From contig NC_089726.1 of assembly GCF_035083965.1 (NCBI RefSeq), forward strand, positions 11,041,501 through 11,105,500: a stretch of 64,000 nt of DNA, written 5' to 3'. Under the pieces are notes generated by a model. It searched no databases. It had not been told where the DNA came from and saw nothing but the letters and a program-made list of their open reading frames with translations. Made by a program: the position numbers and the translations under genes. Each line of letters begins with the position of its first letter. The stretch's first letter is position 1. Positions 2,287-60,800 of the stretch are shown here, one piece after another. This stretch comes from Branchiostoma lanceolatum. Its lineage: Eukaryota > Chordata > Leptocardii > Amphioxiformes > Branchiostomatidae.

Positions 2287-2333
2287 CTGTAACCAAGGAG
2301 GTTTGAATCTGATTTAAACCTCCTTGCTGTAAC
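2287..2333. mobile_element. Palindromic mini-element, copy A, with 7-bp target duplication
   Basis: The 33-bp near-perfect palindrome at 2294-2326 starts CAAGGAGGTTTGAATC and ends GATTTAAACCTCCTTG. It is bounded on both sides by the direct repeat CTGTAAC (2287-2293 and 2327-2333). The same arms with different 7-bp duplications occur at 25832-25852 and 53380-53411. Confidence 0.8.
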
Positions 2334-3810
2334 ATTCTCTGACTACTGAAACGACAGGCAGTCATAAATCATAACGATCTCCCCTCTTTTGTAAAACTTC
2401 CACATAGAAATTGTAGCGATGGAGATGAGAGACAGAGGACCGGTTAAAAGTTTATTCCTCGCTCTTCACAAAAACTTGCCTAACTACTGATGATGCTATT
2501 AAAGAGGACATAGATAGATATGTCAATCAATCAATCAATCGGGCAAGAAATTAAAATAATATTTCAATACAAATGGTAATCAACGTTTCTGTAATCTTAT
2601 ATTGAGTCAAATCTGATTGCTGTGCTATTGATTCCAAATGATATTGGATTTAGATCCTGATATCTGTAGTTCAGTGATTGATTTATCCATTAATCTGCTA
2701 AGTTGATTTTTGGTCCATCATGATGCTTTATTTGGGCACTTTCTGTCTTCAAAATAGAGAGTTTCTCCATCCATACATTTGTGCAAGGCACACAAACAAT
2801 GATCTATCTATCTCATTGTATCATTATTATTCTTGAATGTCCATGGTCACACATACTACATCTACAGCGAATGTTCACACCTCCACCTTTTGCTGAAATA
2901 TAACCTAAGTACGCATGTACGCCATGTACCTGTAGGTACATTTGCGAAAGTTAAGTGTTGGTTACAGAAGAATTCAGTAGGAACATTTCTGAACTAGAGT
3001 ACAGAATTTTGAACAGTATCACACAAGTTGAAAATACTCAAAGCTCACAACTATTGCATTCATACATTTTTACTACACCATAAAAACAGCATTGTTCAGG
3101 CAAAAAATATCAGGGGCGACAGTGTACAGTCCTGTCAGTCAGTTGCAATTACAACTTAAGTACCAAAATGACCGACCAAAAATTGTGGTATTTCATCCCC
3201 ATGGTATTTCATGTCTAGACACATTACTGTGATAAAAGGACATTCTATACAGTATTACAATTACAACTAAAAAACCGAAAGATTTCCACACAAACACAAT
3301 ATGAACTGTATTTACTATTCAATATTCCATGCATTTATAGACTTTTCAAATACTGAACAGTAGGTTGTCTTCTAGAGTAAATAGATAGTAGTTGATAATA
3401 ATTAAATGAGTTACTAGTAATCTGGGGTATTGTTTGCTGATTGGCCAATATGGCCATTTAGAAAACCATACCATTAAACAGGGGTAATGTTCCATGAATA
3501 TCAACAAAGAGGCCATTAGTGCACATCCAACTGACCCCACCATGTGGTTTTAGGGTGCAGCCTTCATTAATAATGGCTCTCTTAACACACATGACAGCAC
3601 TTATTATTTCATGTGTTAATGCAAATATCATGTATATATCATAATTACATCTTATCAGGAACTACCTGTAGCAAAATGATAACATTGTTCTCAGAAGACA
3701 TTTAAACATAGTCAATATTTCTACTGAAACAAAGTCTTTGCGCACAACCAATTAATGTGCCCTAAACTGCTAGTGTATGTTCTATCTAAATATCAACAGA
3801 AAAGAAGAAC
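2334..3810. other. Intergenic, no gene seen
   Basis: AT-rich sequence with a short AATC-type microsatellite at about 2521-2540. No coding exon or RNA gene could be supported. Confidence 0.5.
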
Positions 3811-4544
3811 TAGAGTCAATTCCATGTCACCGAGAGGGTTTTCAGATGATATTGCTAATAAGTTTGAACAATTTTAGAGAAAAGACTATTTCAGTCAAAA
3901 TAATTCCAGACCGTTCAAACAATTAGAAATGAAAGTCTGAACATGTTTGAACTCATTTATATATTTTGGAAATATTATGAAAGTATTTGCACAAATATCT
4001 CTTTATTTAGAACAGTGTTCAAACATCTGTGTGATTGTTCTACTGTTGGAACATGTTCCAACATTTTGCATCATTCTCAAAATGGTAGATTTGGGTTATT
4101 GCCCCCATAAAAGTAGGTGCTAATCACGCTCTATTGTCTGCCTCTGTATATTTTTAGATTTCACGTCTGGACACTGGCAACTCTTTTGTCTTTAAGTGTC
4201 TATGCATGGCACATAGGCCTAATCCCCTATACTTTGAAGGGATGTGTGAATTGCCCTGTTCCCAGCCCACTGACCCAGTTATATCATATTTGTAGAATGT
4301 TGGAACATGTTCAAACAAATGATCAATCTATGTTGCAACAATTTAGAAACTAATACAAATAATGTGTTCAATGTTGGAAATTTGTTTAACCTGTTGGAAC
4401 ACAGCATAGAATATTTAGAACATCAAATAAATGTTGGAAATTGTTCTTAACAGTTACTTATCTCACATAGATTGTTACAAAGGTTTTGTAAATGTTAGAA
4501 CAAAAGGCAACAAACACCCTCTCGGTAATGTGGAATTGACTCTA
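3811..4544. mobile_element. Tc1/mariner-like MITE, copy 1 (734 bp)
   Basis: Terminal inverted repeats TA-GAGTCAATTCCATGTC and, at the far end, ATGTGGAATTGACTC-TA. The inverted repeat continues through ACCGAGAGGGT in both arms, and a TA dinucleotide sits at each outer end, as expected for Tc1/mariner insertions. No transposase is encoded, so it is non-autonomous. A second copy, about 97% identical by eye and in the same orientation, lies at 27395-28123. The interior contains several GAACATGTT palindromes. A 78-codon open frame inside is present in both copies but resembles nothing known to me. Confidence 0.85.
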
Positions 4545-4654
4545 GTTGTAAAATTGTAAAATGTAGTGGTCATGGAAGTGTTGAAAATGTATGTTGAAAG
4601 TAAATGCATTCCTATGGGAATCATCCCCCTGTTTAATAGTGATACGTTTGAAGG

Positions 4655-25824: not shown

Positions 25825-25859
25825 GTCTAACCAAGGAGGTTATACCTCCTTGGTCTAAC
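25825..25859. mobile_element. Palindromic mini-element, copy B, with 7-bp target duplication
   Basis: The 21-bp palindrome at 25832-25852 has arms CAAGGAGGT and ACCTCCTTG around TAT/ATA-rich centre bases. Perfect direct repeats GTCTAAC flank it at 25825-25831 and 25853-25859. This is the shortest of the three copies. Confidence 0.8.
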
Positions 25860-26144: not shown

Positions 26145-26464
26145 TGAGCCCAAGTTTAGCATATTCGAAGACGCCTGTGAAATAATCAGGGTTACGGCTA
26201 TTTTGAACGTAGGGTTAGCATTGATTGCACGTTTAAGACCTTTAAAGACGTATAACTCCTCAAGAAAGCAAGATATCCCAAAACGGTTTTCTGATTACAT
26301 GTTCTGATCGATAGACCTTTCAAATGAGCCCAAGTTTGGCATATTCGAAGACGCCTGTGAAATAATCAGGGTTACGGCTATTTTGAACTTAGGGTTAGCA
26401 TTGATTGCACGTTTAAGACCTTTAAAGACGTATAACTCCTCAAGAAAGCAAGATGTCCCAAAAC
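26145..26464. repeat. Tandem duplication, two 140-bp units at 180-bp period
   Basis: TGAGCCCAAGTTT starts at 26145 and again at 26325. The following roughly 140 bases (through GCAAGATATCCCAAAAC and GCAAGATGTCCCAAAAC) match with only a few differences. The 40-bp spacer is not shared, or has diverged. No coding content is supported. The surrounding intergenic DNA (25162-27394) shows no gene. Confidence 0.8.
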
Positions 26465-27394: not shown

Positions 27395-28123
27395 TAGAGT
27401 CAATTCCATGTCACCGAGAGGGTTTTCGGATGATATTGCTAATAAGTTTGAACAATTTTAGAGAAAAGACTATTTCAGTCAAAATAATTCCAGACCGTTC
27501 AAACAATTAGAAATGAAAGTTTGAACATGTTTGAACTCATCTATATATTTTGGAAATATTATGAAAATATTTGCACAAATATCTCTTTATTTAGAACAAT
27601 TTTCAAACATCTGTGTGATTGTTCTACTGTTGGAACATGTTCCAACATTTTGCATCATTCTCAAAATGGTAGATTTGGGTTATTGCCCCCATAAAAGTAG
27701 GTGCTAATCACGCTCTATTGTCTGCCTCTGTATATTTTTAGATTTCACGTCTGGACACTGGTAAGTCTTTTGTCTTTAGGTGTCTATGCATGGCACCTAG
27801 GCCTAATCACCTATACTTTGAAGGGATGTGTGAATTGCCCTGTTCCCAGCCCACTGACCCAGTTATATCATATTTGTAGAATGTTGGAACATGTTCAAAC
27901 AAATGATCAATCTATGTTGCAACAGTTTAGAAACTAATACAAACAATGTATTCAATGTTGCAAATTTGTTTAACCTGTTGGAACACAGCAGAAAATATTT
28001 AGAACATCAAATGAATGTTGGAAATTGTTCTTAACAGTTACTTATCTGACATAGATTGTTACAAAGGTTTTGTAAATGTTAGAACAAAAGGCAACAAACA
28101 ACCTCTCGGTAATGTGGAATTGA
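27395..28123. mobile_element. Tc1/mariner-like MITE, copy 2 (3' end broken)
   Basis: Same element and orientation as 3811-4544. The left end TA-GAGTCAATTCCATGTC is intact. The right end stops at GGAATTGA and lacks the last CTC-TA. It is joined directly to a 52-bp sequence duplicated at 30663-30714. It lies just past the 3' end of the C3orf20-like gene. Confidence 0.85.
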
Positions 28124-28173
28124 AAATCTTCTGTGAATGTAAACTTTCTGTAAGATTACACAAACAGGAGCCA
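28122..28173. repeat. 52-bp direct repeat, copy 1
   Basis: The run from GAAAATCTTCTGTG to AAACAGGAGCCA is identical, 52 of 52 bases by eye, to 30663-30714. It begins exactly at the break of the MITE copy ending at 28123. Confidence 0.85.
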
Positions 28174-28795: not shown

Positions 28796-31700
28796 CTACA
28801 GCCCGGCCCCCACAGATGGTACAGGCTGGAGTTTCGGTGTGCTGGGGTTGGCTGTACGGAGCTGCTCCTCCCGTAAGAAGTAGTAGTCTTTAGACAGGCT
28901 GAGGGTGACCACGTCTCGCGCTGTGCCTTGGCTGTGGGGAGAGAGAGTAAGATCATGAGACCTTGAGAACAGTTCCATGAACAACGTAGCTTACCAGAGC
29001 TTTTGTATTACAAGCTGCCTTCAGACAACATGCAAGATTTCCTAGTAAAAAACAGCTAAGGAATTCAGTAACCAATGTCATATAAAGCAGATAATAAAAC
29101 TATAGAGATATAAGGTCTTTCTTTGAATGTCATAATGAATAATTTCATTTGCTAATTGCTATATTTACTCACTGCTAGGACCCATCCCAAAACTATTTTT
29201 GTATTGTTCGGAGAGTAATAAATCATTCATTGTTTAGCAAGTAGAAGAATGACACCTCACCTCCAGCGATTTGTGTCCACAAAGAATTCCCGTGAGTCGA
29301 TGCTGGAGACAGACGGCGTTCTGTCCGACCTGGCGTCCCTGGGTAGTCCTGGCTTCCCGGTCTTCCCTATCCCCGTCCCCCCAATCTCTCCTCCCCAGGC
29401 AGCACGCGGGCCATGCTTCCCTCTGCTGGGGCTGGAATGGACAACAAAACAGAACGTTTTATCAGTATGTGTTGTAACTGAAGGGTATTCTTTGCTCCTC
29501 ACAAGTTTCACAACAAGCAACCTTGAAGTAGGGTTTTCCAGGAAACGTCCCTAAGGAAGGTAAAAGGCAATACCCCTCCCCCCACAAATGGATATTTTAA
29601 GGTTTTAAGTTTTAACCGATAGCATTTTAGAGAAATTGCCCTTGTCACAGGGATCTCGCACCCCCCGTGAATTTGAACCCCCCGGTTCGAAATCACTAGT
29701 GAATTTGCACCCCCCGGTGCGAAATCCCTAGCGATTTCGCACCCCTCTAGTGATCTCGCACCCCCAGGGTGTAGTATGTGTTCTGTTACGGCATTCATAA
29801 TTCCCAGTGGCTATCTTTTTAACAAATTGATCGGTAACTATAACTGACATTTCAAATGCTCTGTTGACTGAAGTGGTAACGAATTGGGTTGTGCAATGAC
29901 TATCTGGGAGTCATGGTTCTTGTGTTCAAATCCTGGTGGCGACATTTTTTTATCCCGTAGTTTTTAACATTAAATAACTAATAATTCTTACTCAGAAATG
30001 TCATAAGATTTCGATTAAGGCTTCGATAAATTTTTTCTAACCCTATTTAACACCCGTCATCCATTCAATATGTGATATAATTCTGTATGATAAAATGTTA
30101 TTCAAGTCTCTAAAATAATTAAAAAAATCAATTATGAACATTGAAGTAAAACTATGAACTAATCGTACATTCCTCATGGCACAAAGGAAGAATATTACAA
30201 CGAATCATCGTGCACAGAGAGTCACCATCATCGCGCTGTGCTGAAATACTAGTAGCATTACATTAGTCCAGGGCATGGGTTCCCGGAGTCTTAGATGTTT
30301 GTTCTGTCAGACACAGCAACTTGTAATACTCTCGATTACCACGTTAAACTATGGCTTTATTATATCAAAATGCAGTTTTGAATATAATTGCTGCACAGAG
30401 CACCTTTCGAAATATTTGGGGGGTTCAAAATCCCTAGGGGGGTTCGAGGAGGGGGTGCGAGATCCCTAGCTGGGGGGTGCAAGATCGCTAGGGATTTTGC
30501 ACCGGGGGGTGCGAGATCCCTAGTGATTTCGCACCGGGGGGTTCAAAATCAGGGGGGTGCGAAATCCCTGTGACACCCTCATATCCCTCACACAGAAACA
30601 TTTATGGAACAGTTCAAACCATACACACAGGACAGTGAACAGATCTGAAAGAGAAGAAAGAAGAAAATCTTCTGTGAATGTAAACTTTCTGTAAGATTAC
30701 ACAAACAGGAGCCACACGGGTGCTGAAAAATTGTACATGTGGTGCATTGAGGAGGTGCTTTTGTGCTGAATTAATGTTACATGTCTGCATCCGTGGAATT
30801 GTAGGACCTTATCCAGCACACCTCTAAAATGGACTTTCCTGCCACTCTGGCACTTCTTGACACCTAGGTAAGGAAATATAATATATGGTGTGATGTTTAG
30901 ACAGCTGCTGTGAATATGTGCTGAATGTGTGTTCTAGCCAGTATTGCTAAGAAGTAATTCTAAACAAAAATCTTCATTTCAAACAAACATGATAAACTTT
31001 TACAAAAAAAGGAGAAAAAGCTATACAACATGCACAACATAAAAAAGCTAATGAGAGTTGCACTCACCAAAATCTGAAGTCGGCTGGCAGGAAATTTCCC
31101 AGTTTGGCATCATGCTTGGTCTTCAGTATCTGCTTGACGAGGTCCTTCTTTGCATTCCCGTAACCGTTGAAGATGTGGTCGCAGAAGAGCAGCTTGCCGC
31201 TGTAGTACATCAGGAACATGCCGGCTACGGCGTTGTGTCTCCGTAGCAGCAGTGGCTGGTCATAGTCCGTCAGCTCCGCCGCCACTGCCATGTCGTACTT
31301 GAATATTCTGAAGGGATCGGACCGACTCTGCACGCACGGCATCGTCCTGTTTTTGTTACGGTCTATGTACATCCGTTCCAACATGGTGTCGCACGGGTTA
31401 GCGTTTGTGTAGTACGTGGAGGTGACAGCGATGATTATCAGCTGGTTCTTAGGAAGAAACTCCTTGAGAAGACGATCAAACTCCAGGTCCAGGACCAGGG
31501 GAACTTTGTGCTTGCTACACTTGCAGGCGAGGATGCCCTCTCCCAGGATCTCAGCACGCAGCGAGACGGGGCAGCCCTCCCGCAGCGGGGTACGCACCCG
31601 CTCGGGGGTGGACAGGTTGGCATGGCTGGCACTCTTGGGGAAGAGGCTGGAAGGAGCTCGCATTGGAGACCTGGAAAAAGTACAGCCAGAGGGTTAATGA

Positions 31701-43820: not shown

Positions 43821-44273
43821 TCACTTCAGTATTCAGAAGTTGTATAGCGGCTCAGGGTCTACTCGACTCTGTCTGGCACATGTGACCATTTTGTTTGTTT
43901 TGTGGAAAAACCGTAACAAATTATCATCTATACCAATAACGAATACTTGCTAAATTTTACTTGTATTCTTTAACCTCCTTGGTGCAGGTTGCAACATTTA
44001 TCATTTTACTTGAAAAGCGTCATGCTTCGTCCTCAGTCTATCCTCAGTCTGAGGTACGGCCGCGCCAAAGAAAGAAATTGGGAAAGACTGTTGCGTTTCA
44101 CGGAAATGTTCTCCAAACCGTAAATATTTGTTATCATTTTAGTCATTTATGTTTACATCGTACTTTTTTTCATCAGCAGGTAGTTGATGCCCCCGAGTCT
44201 TTTGAGGTGTAACAGGTGTCTCGAGAGATTCCGCAATCTGGTCCCTCTACCCCCCGCGGAGTCACTTTTCATA

Positions 44274-44516: not shown

Positions 44517-47500
44517 ATGGCTGACATGGACGGCATCTGGTCCCAACACGGAGGGATGGACGGTCTTCCGCCCAGCGACCCGCCAGAAATCAGCTTTGGA
44601 GCGCCGAACGTTTTCCAGGTCGGCACGTCGGACTCCCCTGCGTCCGAGCTGCCTGACAGCGCCCTGGGGTACGGGGTGCCTTACATACCGGACGACGATG
44701 ACGACTCACAGGAGGAGGAGGGGCCTGAGGTTGGGAGGCTAAAATGTTTTAATTAAACATGTCACAATTTACTATGTGGACGAAATGTCTTTCACTTCAA
44801 ATACCAACAAGTGAAGAGTTTTCCAATAAATACAAATGCAAATACTGAATGCCTGTTCATTACTTGTGTAGCTGTCTCCTGATGGAATCTTGGATGAGGA
44901 GACGGTGGCCCAGGGCCTGTCTAACCTGGGGAAGGCTGCCGGGGGCACGGCTCAAGTCTTCCTGCACCTCACATTGCCGGTAAGTTAAACTGGTACACAC
45001 ATGTAGTGCTCAGGTGTAGAAGAGCACACATGTACAGTACCATTACCTTCATTTCTGCAGTTGTTTTCATGGTTTTGCAGTACAGACAGATAAACTGTGC
45101 TTCAATCAAAATGCGTATAGAGGAGACATTCAATTGTTATAAGATTTACTACTAGTATTATGTACAAATTATGCACAGGTAGTAGAGAATTAAGAAGGGC
45201 GTTAAGTGCACACAGGTATATTCCATCTATTAAAAAGTAACATGTTCTTTGACAAATTAATCATTGAAAGCCGCAGTGGTAACATTCTTTCCAGCACTTA
45301 GGTGACCAGTTTACTCAATGGTGTGTGAAGATTTCCCAATTTTTTTTTACCCATTGTCTGTCCACAGGGTTATAACCTAGCTGACATCAGCCTGCTACAG
45401 GACTATGTCCATCTGCAGAGGCTGGAGATGCCGTACAACCAGATCACAGGTGTGGAGATGGCAGAAATATGCAGCTTTATTACGCTACATGTAGTTTACA
45501 TAACTGTAGTCATGTACACTGTATGTACAGACAGGTGATTGTACAAACTTCTGCTATAAATGTCATATATTTTTCAATATGCACTTAGAATCTTGGTCAC
45601 TGTGCAGCTTTTGTAGAAAGACTTTGTCTTTGTCAAAAAGTGGTTTGAATGCTTCTCCAAAGCTTTTAAAAGGAATATCTGCAAATTATACAGTGATACA
45701 TATCTTTTAAAACTTGTGTTCTTGTTTACTTCACAGACCTGTCTGCTCTGAGCTGTATGACACATCTCCTGTACCTGGATGTCTCCCACAACGAGCTGAG
45801 AGATCTGCTCAACTTTGAACCACCCATAAATCTGAAGGTACATATTGTAGTGGGCATCTGTAGCACGGCTATACGTTTTTAAGTGTTTATTACATGAATA
45901 GCTCTTGACATTTGTGGCATTTAGGCATTGTTGTGTGATGCTTTCATCAGATTTGAATTATTTTACAATGGAAGGCATTAACACACTAGTACTTTTATAG
46001 TTGTTGCAGTCATATCATGTTGTAGTAATAGTTTATTGCAGATATGAGTTGCTGCACCTTTCAAGTCTGCCAATCTTGCTTTGACTAAGAAGAAATAGTG
46101 ATGTCTTATGATATAGATATCTTTAAGCACTGGAGAGATCTAATTTCTGTGACCTTTTCCATTATAGGAGGTGGATTACTCCTACAACAAGTTGGAGACC
46201 ATTCAGGACCTATCAGAACACACAGCTCTCACCAAACTGACCCTGGACAGTATCCTTCATAGCTGTATTATAAACTTTATCAACTTCTATTAGTGATTAA
46301 TAGTTTTAAACTTATTTCTATCCAAATTTTCTATCCTCATTTAAAGAGATCATTTGCCCTTGACTCTTGTTCCTTCCAAGACAACAACATCGCAGAGATC
46401 TCAGGCTTGTCCAACTGCAGGCAGCTCAGATATCTGAGTATCGCCCACAACAACCTACAAAAGATCAGTGGACTGGATCACCTCAAGATCAAGTACCTCA
46501 GTCTGGTGGGTCATGAATTCTTTTACTGTGTTCTGTTAGGAGGTTGAAGGAAAACTTCCACATCATACGGTTATACAGTTATACAGTTATCATTGCCTTG
46601 ATTCAGAATTATATCATTCCATGTTAGGCAAAACTTGCTGTTTATGATGATGATTTACTGAATACATATTGATATTTTTACTTTTAGAGAGGAAACAACA
46701 TCAAGAGGATAGAAAACTTGGAGACCTTAGTGTACCTTCAGGCAAGTACCCACGATTTTTTTTTACTAAAATATGATGATCCCTTTACTTATGCAGGAAA
46801 GTAAAATGATTCAAAACTCTACTTTTTGATATGTCACCAATGCCAGGCAAATGTTTGTGCCAAGATAAAAGAAGAGTGATGATCTTTCTTCAGTCACCTG
46901 TGACACCTGTGTAGTCAGTTGGTTTGCTGGTAAGATGCTCTGGTCCTGAGGTGTCACTAAACACTAACCCCCCTCCTCTGCAGGTGTTGAACCTGTCTGG
47001 TAATGCCATCAGCAGCATGGCTGGGCTGGAGGGACACAACTATCTGGAGTCTGTGGATCTGGATGACAATGAGGTTAACAATTCAATACTTTTCATGTTT
47101 TGGAAAAGAGTTACTGATTACTTACTGATTTACTATCAAATTACATTGTAACTGCATATTACTAGATCAAAAAAATTAATTAAGAAAAATAAATTACCCA
47201 TCTTGTCACAGGTGAGCAGCATAGTTGAGGTGCAGTACCTGGTGGACCTGAGGCTGCTCACAGACCTGAACCTGATGCGGAACCCCATACAGGTCTGTCG
47301 GGCTGAATTTGTTCTCGTATAATCTCTTCAGTCACCTGCTTACCAACACAACAAAAAGTTGGACTTACTGAATATTTTGACTGTACAACACCAATCCTCT
47401 GCTTCTATTACCTTCATAGGATTGCAGATGAGACTGACGAGTACATTTTGCAAATTGCTAACCTGTAGAACACACTTGTATTGAGAAAGATAAAATCATT

Positions 47501-50500
47501 GTCTCTGTGATTCCTAGACTCATGGACTGATGTTTTCTTTGCCCAGGGCCTCCCTGACTACCGGCTGTCCATCCTGTTCAAGTTACAGCAGCTGTCCACC
47601 CTGGACAGAAAGAAAGCAGAAGTGGAAGAGAAGGTCAGGCAGGAATCATTCCCAGAATTGTCAATTCACAGTATGAAAATGATTTTGAAAAAGAAATTAT
47701 AAAATACCTAATGATAAGAAACAAATCTTGTGTATTAGCATAAAAGTTTATCAGTGTTGCTATACAATATATATACATGGAAAACTGTAACTATTAGTAA
47801 GTCCAATCTTTGTGTTGGAAAATGGAATAAATGTTTCCATAAATCATGTGTATTTTCAGGTTCAGGCAATCAACATGTTCAACCCTCCCCAGGAGGTCAT
47901 AGCTGCACAGGACCACATCAGGAATGTGGTGTACAGTTTCCTTACAGCCAGCAGAGTCTACGACAGGTGAGACTTTTGTATGTGGCAAAAACTAGGTACC
48001 GGTGTGGCCAAGCTATCATCATCATCTTATCTTAGATATCTAACTTTGCATGCGAGTGGAGGGGCTTTAGAACTTTCAGTCACAAACAACCAATCCACTT
48101 CTTTGACAAGATTTACCGATATTCAACAACTTGTCATTTATGGATGACCAAATCTTACAGTGGATGTCAGATTTTAGATGGTCCAACCTGATTCTGTCCA
48201 ACCATTTTGGAACACTTTTACCATGTTTACACAAATGTACATGTTTTTATCACAGCACGCTGCCCAGTATTGAGACCCCCTACCCCATGTTAGTACTGAC
48301 TGGTCCCCAGGGATCAGGGAAGAGGGACCTGGCTGTTCGACTGGTGCAGGACTTCCCAGACTACTTTGGATACGGGTAAGAACATTTGCCTCCCTGATGC
48401 CTCAGTTACAACACTCAATGTCCCAGTTCTGTACTTTGCTCTTTGCCATTTACAGTGCTTGTTATACTGGGTCTGTAACACTTGGTATTGTATGTTCCAT
48501 CTTTTGACAGAATTTCTCACACCACACGGCCCCCAAAGACAGGAGAGGAGGACAACAAAGACTACCACTTTGTGTCCATGGACAGGTTTGAGAACCTCAT
48601 TAGACAGGTATGCAAGTGACAAACATCATACACAAAATCTACCAGCATTTCATCCATTCTACTATTATCACTGACTATGGATTTGAAGTGGATGAAATTG
48701 TAGAGGATATGCTGATCCTAATGTTGTTGTTCTTCCTGTGTGTAGGGTAAGTTTATCCAGACCTGTCAGTATGCTGGCCATCTGTATGGCCTGACCATGG
48801 ATGCTGTGGAGGCCGTGGCTAAAGAAGGACTGGCCTGTGTGGTGCACATGGAACTGGAGGTAGGTTCTGTGGAATTCATCTCATAGAAATGTTAGGATGT
48901 TGTATTATTTTCCAGCCATATTGTCTTGTGTAGGTGTTATGCATCTACAGGGGTTTTAGAAATCACAATCACCTGATTATTGCTTACATGTGGTTCTCTG
49001 GAAGCTTAAGTATTATAAGTTTTGTCTTTTGATGATAGTATATGAATAGCATGGGTGTCACCCTAGGTTGCAAGGGAGCCCCAATAACTAATAAGGATGG
49101 CACCCAGGGTAGTACATGTACTTGTTTTCGATCAATGGCAATTGGATGCATTATGCATATCTAATCAATCTGTCCAAGCAGTTCCAAATTAACTGCTTCA
49201 TGATAGTAGGTACACATAGACGTATGTCCTTGAATATTATTAAGAAATAGCACTCTTGTACTCAGGGTGTGATGACGTTGAAGAACACCTACTTTGAGCC
49301 AAGGTACGTCCTCATCATCCCGGCCACCAGGCAGTACCTGGCCGAACGTCTCAGCTCCAGGGAGGGGATACAGCAGGATGAGGTGGCCTACAACATCACA
49401 CGATGGGACACCTACGTGGACACCAACCAGACCAATCCAGGCTTCTTTGACATGGCCATTGACAGTGGTAAAAACCTTCCTTGGTCTGACGGCATTGCGT
49501 CAATTCTGAAGTCTCATTGTATTCATAAAGCGTGTATCTCACTGAACTGCTGCACACAACCGAGTGATTTGACAGAAGGCTCAACAAATCTCATCGATAA
49601 AAATGCATGTTGTTATCTTTTTAGTCATACTTGTCCATTTTGCATGGTATTCCCATTATAAAGTCAAGGGTAACATAAATCCAATTCAAGTCACAGCAAG
49701 GTCGACAACATGCTGCAGTCCAGTGAAATACCCCCTTAAGTATACATGATTCTTCAGATAGTCTTATCAACATTTGGAGGCTCCCCTACCTGCCCAGAAT
49801 GTGAATTAAGTCAGTTAGAGCACCAATCGTATACTGATTGGTAGGATGGCAGAATTGTCTGCACCAAGTACTGACAACAATGTTCTGACAATATCTTCCG
49901 TTCATTTATGTTTTAGATGACTTTGGACAGGCCTACACGTCCCTACGGAAGTTAGTTATGGACTACCTGGGCATCAGTGATGCTGCATCATCAGAGACAT
50001 CCACCATTGATGGCGACTCCAGGTCCCAGAGTAGATCAGAGGCCAAGGATGGAACTATGAGTATGACTGGTGAGAGTATTCAATTTGTTTTTAAGAAAAC
50101 AATCAAGAAACATTAAAAAGGTTGTGAAGTAAATTCCACAAGATTACAACAAAAATTGATGTACAGCCTCCATATTTCAAATATTTTGTTCCTCACTTTT
50201 AAATTTGCCCATTGATTGCTGCCAGATTGTGGAGATATGACAACTTTGACTTGACTCTAAATTAGTGTAATGGGTTCATCTCTATAGGTGTGACATCCAC
50301 CAACTCAGCCACCAGGGCGACCAAGTGGAGCAAGCCTACAGGCTCCATCAGCATGGACATGGAGATGGGAGGGGGGGCAGCACGCACATACTCGGGACAA
50401 CTCCGCAAGATGGAACCCAAGAAGACACCTGTGGTAAGTGCACTCCATTATTTATACCAGTACTATCAGTCCTAAACAGACTCTTGTTAAGAATCTTGAT

Positions 50501-52852: not shown

Positions 52853-54008
52853 TCATTTCCTTTTTGAAGCTCTTTTGCCTTCCCCTTTCTTAGGTTTGAC
52901 CTTTCCTCTTAACGCTCGTAGTCTTGTCATCTCCTCTTTGAAATCTTGGTGTTCGTCTCTGAAAGTAACAAGAACAACAAAAGTTGCCTTTTCTGTCTGG
53001 ACATTAGCAAAACACACTTGGTTATAGGAAGCCATGATGTTGAAAGGTATCCGTAACGGTAGACAGCTGCCAGTGTGGAAGTAAAAATAAGCTCTGTGGA
53101 AATTTAATTTGAACAGTACTTATTTATTCCTTCTTTCATAAAGATAGGAGCACCATCTTTACAAAGCAATAGTTAAGAGAGATGATTTTTTTCATCTGTT
53201 CTTCAACGGTATTCCAGAATAGATCGGATTGCCAAAGAATGGTGCGCAAGACCCTGCAGAGGGCCTCTCTACCAAACGTTGAGAAGACTTTACAACTTGA
53301 CATAAGTTCTTCTGATCAACACTTCCGTGTTAAGCTCTACTTAAAGTCCAAACTAACATGACATATTGGAAGGTCACATCAAGGAGGTTTAATCATGATT
53401 AAACCTCCTTGGTCACATGTACCAACCTGTACAGTCCCATCTTCCGAAGTTCAGCCATCATCTTGACCAGAACATCATGGTTTGGGTAGTAGTCGACAAT
53501 TTCCCTCTTGAGCCAGAGGGGCTTTTCACTGAACATCTTCACAACCTGAGTATTTTGAACAGGAGGATGTTTTAGTACATCAATGGTGACACCTGTCGTA
53601 TACTAGTACATGTATCTAGATGTTGAGCACTTCTTAACAATATCATCTTCATGTGACTATACTATAAATGCTTTATTTCATAATGCAGCAGGATAGCATG
53701 AGTACCATGACAAATCTAAAATCCGAGTACATGTACTTAGTACTATCATGCCTATGTGTTGAACACTAAATATCTGACGAATCATGCCAATCAGCTCCGA
53801 AAAAGAGTATTGTCTCAATTTCAAACATAAAGCTGTTCTCCAATATGTCCATGTATTAGGATTTGTCAGAAGAAATGCGTTTTATTAACTGCCCAAGTTC
53901 ATGGTGACATACCCTCATGGATTTTTTATCAGTGTTGCGTGTGACTTCTCCAAAGATCTGGGCACTGAGCCTCGCCATCCTTCTGGCATAATTGGACAAG
54001 CCGGCCAT
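52853..54008 (-). CDS. MRPS33: Mitochondrial small ribosomal subunit protein S33
   Basis: Three coding exons: 54008-53913, 53545-53427, 52958-52853, with continuous phase and 106 residues, the same length as human MRPS33. Recognisable family blocks are [52 protein letters not shown] and the basic C terminus [14 protein letters not shown]. It is a component of the mitochondrial ribosome small subunit. A 5' UTR intron is likely (acceptor next to 54016; donor GAG/gtaagtg with leader exon 54344 to about 54455). Intron 2 holds mini-element copy C only 15 bases from its 5' splice site. Confidence 0.96.
53373..53418. mobile_element. Palindromic mini-element, copy C, with 7-bp target duplication
   Basis: The perfect 32-bp palindrome at 53380-53411 has arms CAAGGAGGTTTAATCA and TGATTAAACCTCCTTG. 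It is flanked by GTCACAT at 53373-53379 and 53412-53418. It lies inside MRPS33 intron 2, right beside the donor of the middle exon. Confidence 0.85.
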
Positions 54009-55200: not shown

Positions 55201-55322
55201 ACTAGAAACAAGTCCATCCTCCCTTTATCATTTCATTAATAACGCTTGATAAGGATGACATGTAAAGACCCCGGGCATTAACTGACTGGACTGGAACGAT
55301 CAGTCTATTCATTACAGCAACA

Positions 55323-56312
55323 ATGGCGGAGAAACTCGCAAGTGATATCACTCGGGAGTTTCTGGTCTGTCAGATCTGTTTGGACGACTACCGACAACCT
55401 AAAGTCCTGCCGTGCCTTCACACCTTCTGCCGGCGGTGTCTGGAGCGAATGGTTGGAAACAAGACCAGGATTTGCTGCCCGGCTTGTCGGCAGGAGGTTT
55501 CTATATATGAGAACGGTATTGCCGGTCTAAAGGACAACTTTTTCGTCGGCAAACTGCACGATGTGGTCCGGAACGCAACACACCAGGCGGCTCCTGAAAG
55601 GCACTCTACACCAAGGGATGTGTGTAGAAACTGCAGCGACATGTCTACTACAACCAGGTACCGTGATGATCGTGACGACTTTCTGTGTCAGAAATGCGCC
55701 GACTCCAACCGTCGTACAAGGGCGTCGTCACCGCGCCGAAAAATATCCTCATCCGCACCGACAGAAGAGAGGGAACGAACTTCACATTCACCACACGTTG
55801 ACTCTGATGTCGTCTATTGTAAGTCATGTCACGAGTTCATATGTCGGAAAAATAGCCTCTCCAAACACAGGGCACGTCTTCGCTCACAGGTACGAGAGGC
55901 AACAGAGAGAGAAGCAGCTTTAGTCAGGGCGCTCTTGGTGGAAACGGAGAAAGTTGCCGCGGCTCACGAGAAGAAACTACAGGAGCTAAATACAAGACGC
56001 GAAGTATGGCAGCAACAATGTGAAGAAAATATTGCGAAAATAGAAGAGCAAGCCAGGCGGGCTGTACAGACAATACAGATGGAAAGAGACGAGAGAATAA
56101 AGCAGCTCAAACGTGTGGAGACCACCAAGAACAGACAGTTGTTGGAGAACATCGCCGCGGTTGCCGTGAGCGCAGCCCGTGTTCGAGGTAGCTGCACGTA
56201 TGCGAGGGAAGCTTTAGAAAAAGGGACTCCAGAAGAAGTCTTGGCAGTTGCGCAGGAAGTAAAAGAAAGACTGAGACAGTGCTCCAAACTTAGGGCTCCC
56301 AGTTTTTCTTGA
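55323..56312 (+). CDS. RING finger / coiled-coil TRIM-like protein, intronless
   Basis: A single open frame of 329 residues. The C3HC4 RING near the N terminus has zinc ligands C16, C19, C31, H33, C36, C39, C52 and C55 (CQICLDDYRQP; LPCLHTFCRRC; CCPAC). Two weak B-box-like Cys clusters follow, near 100-125 and 165-185. The second (VYCKSCHEFICRKNSLSKH) keeps only part of the usual ligand set. A long coiled coil occupies about 185-290. The protein stops there, with no NHL, SPRY or filamin domain. A RING of this kind normally makes an E3 ubiquitin ligase. Amphioxus has many lineage-specific TRIM genes, and I cannot assign an orthologue. The lack of introns is consistent with retroposition or with single-exon TRIM clusters. 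The ATG context ACAATGG is good. Confidence 0.88.
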   Translation: MAEKLASDITREFLVCQICLDDYRQPKVLPCLHTFCRRCLERMVGNKTRICCPACRQEVSIYENGIAGLKDNFFVGKLHDVVRNATHQAAPERHSTPRDVCRNCSDMSTTTRYRDDRDDFLCQKCADSNRRTRASSPRRKISSSAPTEERERTSHSPHVDSDVVYCKSCHEFICRKNSLSKHRARLRSQVREATEREAALVRALLVETEKVAAAHEKKLQELNTRREVWQQQCEENIAKIEEQARRAVQTIQMERDERIKQLKRVETTKNRQLLENIAAVAVSAARVRGSCTYAREALEKGTPEEVLAVAQEVKERLRQCSKLRAPSFS

Positions 56313-57838: not shown

Positions 57839-60800
57839 TCATGCTCTTGCTAAGACATCAGTGTAGCATTCCTCAAAGTCTTGCACAGAGTGTTCCCCCT
57901 CAGGAGCGGGGCTGGTCGGTGGTAATGCCTCGCTCAGTCGTGACACAAGGTCATCGAAGGTCGGTCGGAGGTCAGGGTCTACCTGCCAGCACAATTGCAT
58001 CATGGTATAGCTGTGGGGAGGAAATAGGGACAGAAGCTTAGATTGGAGCCACAGAAACAAGTTCTTTCTATAGGAAGGAATTGTATTACTACAGGTTAAT
58101 CAAATTGGTTCTAAGATTTAGGTCCATGAAGCCTCCCGCCAGCTTAAATGGAGCCCTATGAAAAGAATCAGTTTTCAAGGCTAGACCATACATGTACATT
58201 GAACTTGACAGATTCCATATTCCCTCACTACTTACATGTGATCTGGGCAGTACTTTGGCTGCCTCAGCCTGCTGCCCCTCTGTAGGTACATGGCCAGGTC
58301 AAAGTTGTCCACATCTGGGTATGGGTTCACTCCTCTCATGGCTAGCTCCCACATCAACACTCCAAATGACCACTACAAAGATTAAGTAACACTCTGTTTT
58401 CATGCAGCCTACAAACTAGATGAATCGTTTGAATACAAACAATGAATGAATGCTCAGCTCTGACTGGAAATGTCTACTGAAACTGAATGGAATGCCAATG
58501 GAAAAATGTTTCAGATGTATAGTAAATCTCATTTGAACACATACAAGAAGAACCTTGCACAACACACTAAGATTGATAATCCAGGCATGGTTCTAAATAC
58601 TTACCACATCACTCTTGGTCGTGTAGGTACCATCTAACAAACTCTCCAGTGCCATCCACTTGACAGGCAGCCTGGCCTTCTTGTCCCCACAGGTGTAGTA
58701 GTCCTTCTCATACAGGTCTCTGGACAGGCCAAAATCTGCCACCTTCACAACCAAGTCTTCACTAACCCTGGAGGGACAAGGTTGGAGAAACTTGTTTAAC
58801 AAACTTAGGAAATGATCAAAGTAACAGAATAATTTGTCAAGCAATGAATCAATGATTTCATTTGAAATCAGTGTCAGCAGAATCTTTTACCATGAAGACA
58901 AATCTATCCCATAAATGAACTAAGGGCTCCATTGGAAATCAGTTACTGTTAACTGAAGGGACTACCCTAAAGATGAATAAATAAATAGATAAAGTGTGAG
59001 GATGGCCATCAGTAGCAAGGACAGGTATTTCTTAGTGTGAGGTGGTTCAGTACCAGGAACAGTTCTGCTGGGCCATGTGGATACTGTTCAGCACCAGGGA
59101 CAGGTCTTTGTAGTGTGAGGATGGTGTTCAGCACCAGAGACAGTTCTGCTAGGGCATGTGGATGGTGTTCAGCACCAGGGACAGGTCTTTGGTAGTGTGA
59201 GGATGGTCTTCAGCACCAGGGACAGTTCTGCTAGGGCATGTGGATAGTGTTCAGCACCTGGGACAGGTCTTTTTAGTGTGATGATGGTGTTCAGCACCAG
59301 GGACAGGTCTTTGGTAGTGTGAGGATGGTCTTCAGCACCAGGGACAGTTCTGCTAGGGCATGTGGATAGTGTTCAGCACCTGGGACAGGTCTTTGGTAGT
59401 GTGAGGATGGTCTTCAGCACCAGGGACAGTTCTGCTAGGGCATGTGGATAGTGTTCAGCACCTGGGACAGGTCTTTGGTAGTGTGAGGATGGTCTTCAGC
59501 ACCAGGGACAGTTCTGCTAGGGCATGTGGATAGTGTTCAGCACCTGGGACAGGTCTTTGGTAGTGTGAGGATGGTCTTCAGCACCAGGGACAGTTCTGCT
59601 AGGGCATGTGGATAGTGTTCAGCACCTGGGACAGGTCTTTTTAGTGTGATGATGGTGTTCAGCACCTGGGACAGGTCTTTTTAGTGTGATGATGGTGTTC
59701 AGCACCAGGGACAGGTCTTTGGTAGTGTGAGGATGGTGTTCAGCACCAGGGACAGACCTGCTAGGGTATGTGGATGGTGTTCAGCACCAAGGACGGGTCT
59801 TTCTTAGTGTGACTTTTATCTATCAATCTGTCTGCTTTCCTAACAAGAGAAAATATGGATTCAAATATGTGGAAAACATGATATCATAAAAAATGCCTAC
59901 TCACATGCAGTTCCTTGCAGCCAGGTCTCTGTGAACAAACTTCAGGCTGGACAGATAAGCCATTCCCTCCCCCACTTGCAGTGCAAATCCCAGGATGTCT
60001 TGCACGGTCAGCAACTGGAATCACAGAAAACCATTGGAATGTGTAAGGTAAAACAGTATTTTCAGATAATCAACTGCATGAAAATTGACAAGAAATAACC
60101 TGCCAAGTACCATACAGTGAAGTCTTTCAAGTTCAAAAGATGTATTTTACTAACAATTTCTAATGACAAAATATGTATAACATCACATCAGGTATATCTA
60201 TCTACACCTTAGCCAAAGACTTGTTTGAACAGATGAAAATGGGTGCCATACCTGTTGAGGGTTCCTGATGAAGCTGTGAAGGTCCCCTAGTTTCATGTAG
60301 GGCAGGACGACCAGTGGAGCACCTGTGGTGGGCAGGCTGACTCCCACCAGGTGGAGGACATGCTCGTGGTTAAAGTCCTTCATCATGATGCCCTCCCGCA
60401 GGAAGTTTTCTATGTCATTCATGTCACAATTGTCTGCTGGAAAAAAAAAGTATACATGGTGGTTGTAGTGTTAGCAGCAAAGAACCTAGAATGGTAGTTG
60501 TTGATATTTCTAATCAGATGGAGAAAGTGACAACATTTAATGACACGGTTCATCATTTTAAAAGAGTAGACAGAAACTTCAAAGCTCATAAAAAAACACT
60601 TTAAGATAGATACATAAAACTAAGGTAAACAACGAGAGAAACTGCAAACAGTTGTTATTTCTGTAGATAAAAATTATGCATACTGATAAGAGACAACCAA
60701 CCATGGTCAACCACATTGAGTACCTACTGTTGAGAGTCTTTATAGCAACTCTGACTGGCTCCTTCTCTTCTGGATGTTGGTATGTTCCATAGAAAACACT

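Follow-up and report, generated by a model that had tools for sequence, protein, structure and literature searches.

What are palindromes of only 21 to 33 bp that lie between perfect 7-bp direct repeats in lancelet DNA: mobile elements in their own right, or something that a larger element left behind? The original prediction, which took them for a family of tiny insertions, named three loci with palindromes of 33, 21 and 32 bp, and each palindrome, with its perfect 7-bp repeat, was found there in the window (the whole 64-kb stretch of DNA that was analysed). The palindromes, their flanking repeats and an isolated half-site are listed below, with the analysis from which each feature comes in brackets.

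2287..2293, no strand assigned: left CTGTAAC target duplication (direct-repeat scan)
2294..2326, no strand assigned: 33-bp palindrome with one arm mismatch, at position 12 (arm comparison)
2327..2333, no strand assigned: right CTGTAAC target duplication (direct-repeat scan)
25825..25831, no strand assigned: left GTCTAAC target duplication (direct-repeat scan)
25832..25852, no strand assigned: 21-bp palindrome, 9-bp arms around TAT (arm comparison)
25853..25859, no strand assigned: right GTCTAAC target duplication (direct-repeat scan)
43972..43981, minus strand: isolated half-site (AACCTCCTTG on the plus strand), either a one-end relic or chance (end pairing and chance expectation)
53373..53379, no strand assigned: left GTCACAT target duplication (direct-repeat scan)
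53380..53411, no strand assigned: 32-bp perfect palindrome (arm comparison)
53412..53418, no strand assigned: right GTCACAT target duplication (direct-repeat scan)

All three palindromes have the outer ends CAAGGAGGT...ACCTCCTTG, start with CA, finish with TG and are at most 34 bp long, and the flanking 7-bp repeat is a different one at each locus. The 33-bp copy consists of 16-nt arms with one mismatch around a single T. In the 21-bp copy the 9-bp arms CAAGGAGGT/ACCTCCTTG pair perfectly and the tenth arm base is unpaired, so this copy is an inexact fit to the 10+10 pattern CAAGGAGGTT...AACCTCCTTG. The outer ends are constant over 9-10 bases or more while the centres differ among the three copies, with 0-3 unpaired central bases. 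The inner bases of the first and third sites also differ (TTTRAATC vs TTTAATCA), which needs either two subfamilies or a 1-nt indel. In a self-BLAST the sole match among the three loci paired 2288-2337 with the opposite strand of 53369-53417. It comprises the palindrome and 6-11 flank bases per side; the wider loci are unmatched. Hairpin folding is strong in the copies (z -6.28 to -7.28).

We compared these findings with several controls. The 10+10 pattern occurs twice in the window and was absent from 100 dinucleotide shuffles. When we scanned for 10-bp arms (one mismatch tolerated) enclosed by a 7-bp direct repeat, the window gave three matches, exactly these palindromes, and at this strictest setting all 20 Markov-random sequences were without a match. 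With the flank length set to 6, 8 or 9 bp, these arms gave no match in the window. Looser scan settings, at which the control means were 0 to 0.65, added the unrelated places 4380 and 38555/38556, as well as 14866 when the flanks were 6 bp long. Eight viral and two prokaryote stretches (nine distinct sequences) contain bare palindromes of this arm sequence, and a flanking direct repeat of more than 2 bp is absent from all ten. Since the flanks are 7 bp long here and never exceed 2 bp in the microbial and viral stretches, the duplications go with this palindrome family and mark insertion. This bears out the earlier claim that they record real insertion events (exact in three of three cases here, against none of the 20 random sequences and none of the ten microbial and viral stretches). 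The three palindromes are a real family, and a real insertion-derived feature.

Three other places were considered as family members and rejected: 30480 lies within a tandem repeat, 38555/38556 is AT-rich, and 45006 has other ends. The last of these is a 22-bp stretch (45006-45027) with 6-bp inverted ends and 7-bp ACATGTA flanks; its ends are unrelated and it is possibly due to chance. The half-match at 43972-43981, which had been put forward as a possible relic, is present, and an exact 10-mer of this kind is expected ~0.15-0.18 times by chance. Within 15 kb of it there is no partner end whose 7-bp flank matches, and the half-site may be a one-sided relic or a chance match.

Based on these features, we suggest that the palindromes are probably excision footprints of a P-superfamily DNA transposon with 7-bp target duplications. 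The P-element transposase cuts each end with a stagger of 17 nt, which is unusually long (PMC7776569, PMC10983969), and an excerpt of PMC7776569 names this stagger as setting P apart from the other characterised cut-and-paste transposons. What stays in the chromosome after P excision is the target duplication and a 17-nt transposon-end tail on each side (PMC2895639). By the same route, an element whose terminal inverted repeats begin CAAGGAGGTTTAA would have inserted here and duplicated 7 bp of its target. Its transposase would then have cut at the outer 3' ends and, on the other strand, ~17 (or 16) nt inside the element, leaving a broken chromosome with the 7-bp duplication and a single-stranded transposon-end tail on each side. 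End joining would have sealed the tails on an overlap of 1-2 nt or after trimming, giving two facing end fragments between two copies of the target site duplication (TSD). The palindrome at 2294-2326 could be a join of 17+17 nt ends with a 1-nt T overlap, that at 53380-53411 a join of 17+17 nt ends on a 2-nt AT overlap or of 16+16 nt blunt ends, and that at 25832-25852 a trimmed junction; the palindromes agree equally with an end length of 16 nt and of 17 nt. Both target duplications are retained in all three cases, at a length found in the P superfamily (7 or 8 bp), and the facing end fragments do not exceed 17 nt (arms of 16 with one mismatch, 16 and 9, in a small sample). The footprint reading rests on n=3 palindromes. 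The constant ends, the arms of at most 16-17 nt, the variable centres and the joins explicable by 1-2 nt overlap or trimming point to P-superfamily excision followed by end joining, and we infer that the source transposon belonged to this superfamily. The different centre lengths, previously ascribed to separate insertions or internal deletion, would be explained instead by end joining after excision.

Sealed P junctions from Drosophila offer a direct comparison. In these junctions a target duplication is followed by an end fragment, an overlap or filler, the facing end fragment and the second duplication (PMC2895639). We re-computed the 63 isolates of Table 1 in that paper in which both duplications are intact, and the length between the duplications ranged from 4 to 44 bp: 4-7 nt in 20 isolates, 16-17 nt in 4, 20-34 bp in 25 and, via filler, more than 34 bp in 14. 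Perfect palindromes were present among them (30 bp in 14 isolates, 32 bp in 5), and 36 of the 63 had perfect outer arms of at least 9. By analogy, the three window copies would fit the middle (20-34 bp) class. The likeness thus covers the two duplications, the facing ends of at most 17 nt and the overlapping, trimmed or filler-bearing join, and also the CA...TG termini, which are common to the window palindromes and the ends of Drosophila P and zebrafish Pdre2. There are differences as well. Drosophila P has an 8-bp duplication and CATGATGAAATAACATA ends, whereas the window palindromes have 7-bp duplications and CAAGGAGGTTTAA ends. The Drosophila junctions were made in the laboratory in Rad51-deficient (spn-A) flies, whereas the window palindromes are natural genome residues; the Drosophila junctions are also often only 4-7 nt long or carry filler, unlike the window palindromes. 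For zebrafish THAP9, larger deletions were left in a Drosophila cell assay (PMC10983969).

The target sites give a second line of comparison. Two relatives within the P superfamily make duplications of this length: the modal duplication of 1360 is 7 bp with the target motif GTTNAAC (PMC3276498), and the duplications of Galileo are mostly 7 bp, GTANTAC or GTATTAC (PMC4168063). The P element duplicates 8 bp, GTCCGGAC, and hobo, a hAT element, has a similar GT..AC core, GTNCGNAC (both PMC3276498). CTGTAAC, GTCTAAC and GTCACAT match a GTnnnAC core at 10 of 12 positions, a fit that triples of random window 7-mers reach with a frequency of 3.5e-5, and GTnnnAC ranks first among 16 motifs of the same shape for the three TSDs; the likeness was spotted after the TSDs had been seen, which calls for a correction by a factor of about 16. 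The corresponding random-triple frequencies against the 1360 and Galileo motifs are 4e-4 and 7e-3. With a similar core in hobo, the GT..AC core alone does not name the superfamily. The palindromes share with 1360/hoppel and Galileo the 7-bp duplications and the GTnnnAC target core. On the minus strand at 49475-49490, we also noticed GTCAGAC followed by CAAGGAAGG, a full GTnnnAC core beside what looks like a decayed end with 2 mismatches. This may be a chance match, as the underlying search gave 8 matches against 1.67 expected, six of the eight being known sites.

We looked for the parent in the same window. We paired 27 left with 30 right ends, each allowed 2 mismatches in its 10 bases, over distances of up to 15 kb and with no more than 1 TSD mismatch; this returned only the three palindromes and no longer element with these ends in the 64 kb. 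A Pfam scan (E up to 0.01) of 40 of the 72 open reading frames of at least 90 aa gave no transposase domain; its matches were a RING finger and a leucine-rich repeat, besides weak ones under the cut-off. These negative results speak against the footprint reading. So does the striking density of footprints without parents: if the 64 kb are typical of the genome, three footprints and not one parent would imply a very large number of excisions. Two candidates for shorter footprints, which resemble the shortest Drosophila junctions, were found at 309 (TCATAAC-CAAG-TCATAAC) and 1350 (CCTGAAC-CAAGGATG-CCTGAAC). Both were rejected because their direct repeats extend past 7 bp, to 10 bp, and because random sequences give comparable matches (in five such sequences, 0-5 at 4 end bases and 0-1 at 5 or 6). 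Exact-7 repeats with spacers of 3-17 nt number 77 in the window against a control mean of 43.6 (40 random sequences), and in none of the 77 does the spacer start with CAAG or end with CTTG (control mean 0.35). There is no convincing case of the short class (4-7 nt) in the window.

Lancelets have MITEs called LanceleTn. This name gave no match in the open-licence literature that we searched, and none of the titles and abstracts listed there deals with the present repeat (Repbase was outside the scope of the search). The similar name LanceletTn-2 is mentioned in PMC5802833. The palindromes would be a known kind of product, possibly from a family that is undescribed in the open-licence literature covered.

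The window contains other repeats and features. A ~740-bp repeat with 36-bp inverted ends (AACTAGAGTCAATTCC...) is present in two copies that are 97% identical (3808-4547 and 27395-28123), with no clear target duplication. Its second copy is adjoined by a 52-bp repeat that recurs with 100% identity (28122-28173 and 30663-30714). An element of ~930 bp (29643-30575) has 126-bp inverted arms (87%) starting TGTCACAGGGATC and short internal tandem repeats, and CCCT adjoins both of its ends, possibly as a 4-bp duplication. Two 140-bp copies, 97.9% identical, lie 40 bp apart (26145-26284 and 26325-26464), and 55266-56312 is an open frame of 348 aa that includes a RING finger. At 58993-59812, a match to the Rfam family mir-2060 falls inside a minisatellite with a 41/82-bp period. 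It scores 60.6 bits (gathering score 54.5), the only one above the gathering score among five mir-2060 matches that cmscan gave along the array at E up to 0.01, and the mir-2060 precursor thus looks like a tandem-repeat unit. To our knowledge, the mir-2060 family is confined to lancelets. The microRNAs of Branchiostoma belcheri include miR-2060c (PMC5650284), the first 16 letters of which are present in the matched stretch. On this ground, too, the window would probably come from a Branchiostoma.

Several other explanations of the palindromes were weighed. An unlikely one is that they are internally collapsed MITEs, that is, longer hairpin MITEs that inserted with a 7-bp duplication and then lost the middle by slippage or hairpin cleavage, without a transposase. 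Strong hairpin structures can delete, the copies do fold as strong hairpins, and no present-day parent is necessary for such an origin. There is no reason, however, why slippage should halt at 16-17 nt in two of the three copies, and the window has no uncollapsed or partly collapsed copy with a TSD. P-related MITEs are known from Anopheles, where P-derived ends of just under 100 bp each surround a central region and numerous copies have 8-bp duplications (PMC1562414). Like the palindromes, these P-related MITEs are non-coding with inverted ends and target duplications, but they keep ends of just under 100 bp and a centre, whereas the palindromes correspond only to the outermost 9-17 nt.

It is quite improbable, in our judgement, that the palindromes are footprints of another, uncharacterised superfamily whose cuts also fall well within the ends and whose target duplications are 7 bp long. 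The lack of a transposase among the 40 of 72 scanned frames would permit this, as would the GT..AC core that hobo has in common (PMC3276498) and the 6-7 bp duplications of Dada (PMC3706591). Dada, however, targets small RNA genes, and its U6 and U1 families are described in the excerpt of that paper as being without terminal inverted repeats, whereas the three sites overlap no Rfam match at the gathering threshold and have strong inverted ends. The 17-nt stagger that distinguishes P among characterised cut-and-paste transposons (PMC7776569) also speaks against it.

We strongly doubt that the palindromes are themselves mobile, as minimal 21-33 bp elements inserted by a transposase acting in trans, even though such elements would recur with shared ends and have clean 7-bp duplications, as these do. 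According to an excerpt of PMC1562414, deleted Drosophila P elements transpose and excise only if 138 and 216 bp of their ends are kept. A MITE has internal sequence and a mobilisable size; on the size reported there, the palindromes, at 21-33 bp with 0-3 unpaired central bases, fall far below. Both ends of a 32-bp DNA would presumably have to pair in one complex, and the variable centres are accounted for by end joining. Therefore the real family, the 7-bp duplications and the transposon origin stand from the original interpretation, but not the palindromes as the minimal mobile form or as the product of a new insertion mechanism. Finally, chance, or hairpins unrelated to insertion, is scarcely credible: microbes and viruses do have bare palindromes built from these arms, but none of the ten stretches has flanking repeats of more than 2 bp against exact 7-bp repeats in three of three cases here, and the strictest setting gave no match in 20 random sequences.

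If the reading of the palindromes as P-type excision footprints is right, they do not form a new class of tiny transposon but are scars, each of which records the departure of one transposon and the mending of the break. A genome-wide set of them would then test in chordates the 17-nt P cut that was measured in Drosophila, and would yield natural germ-line repair junctions. Lancelets preserve a high transposon diversity, with most superfamilies apparently active (excerpt of PMC4284660). More tentatively, and with somewhat less than even confidence, we propose that the lancelet genome may be a dense fossil record of P-type excisions, in which the footprints outnumber the surviving elements. If this is true, the 17-nt staggered cut would be shown to be ancient in the chordate members of the superfamily, and natural end-joining junctions would be preserved in their thousands, legible as a history of DNA repair.
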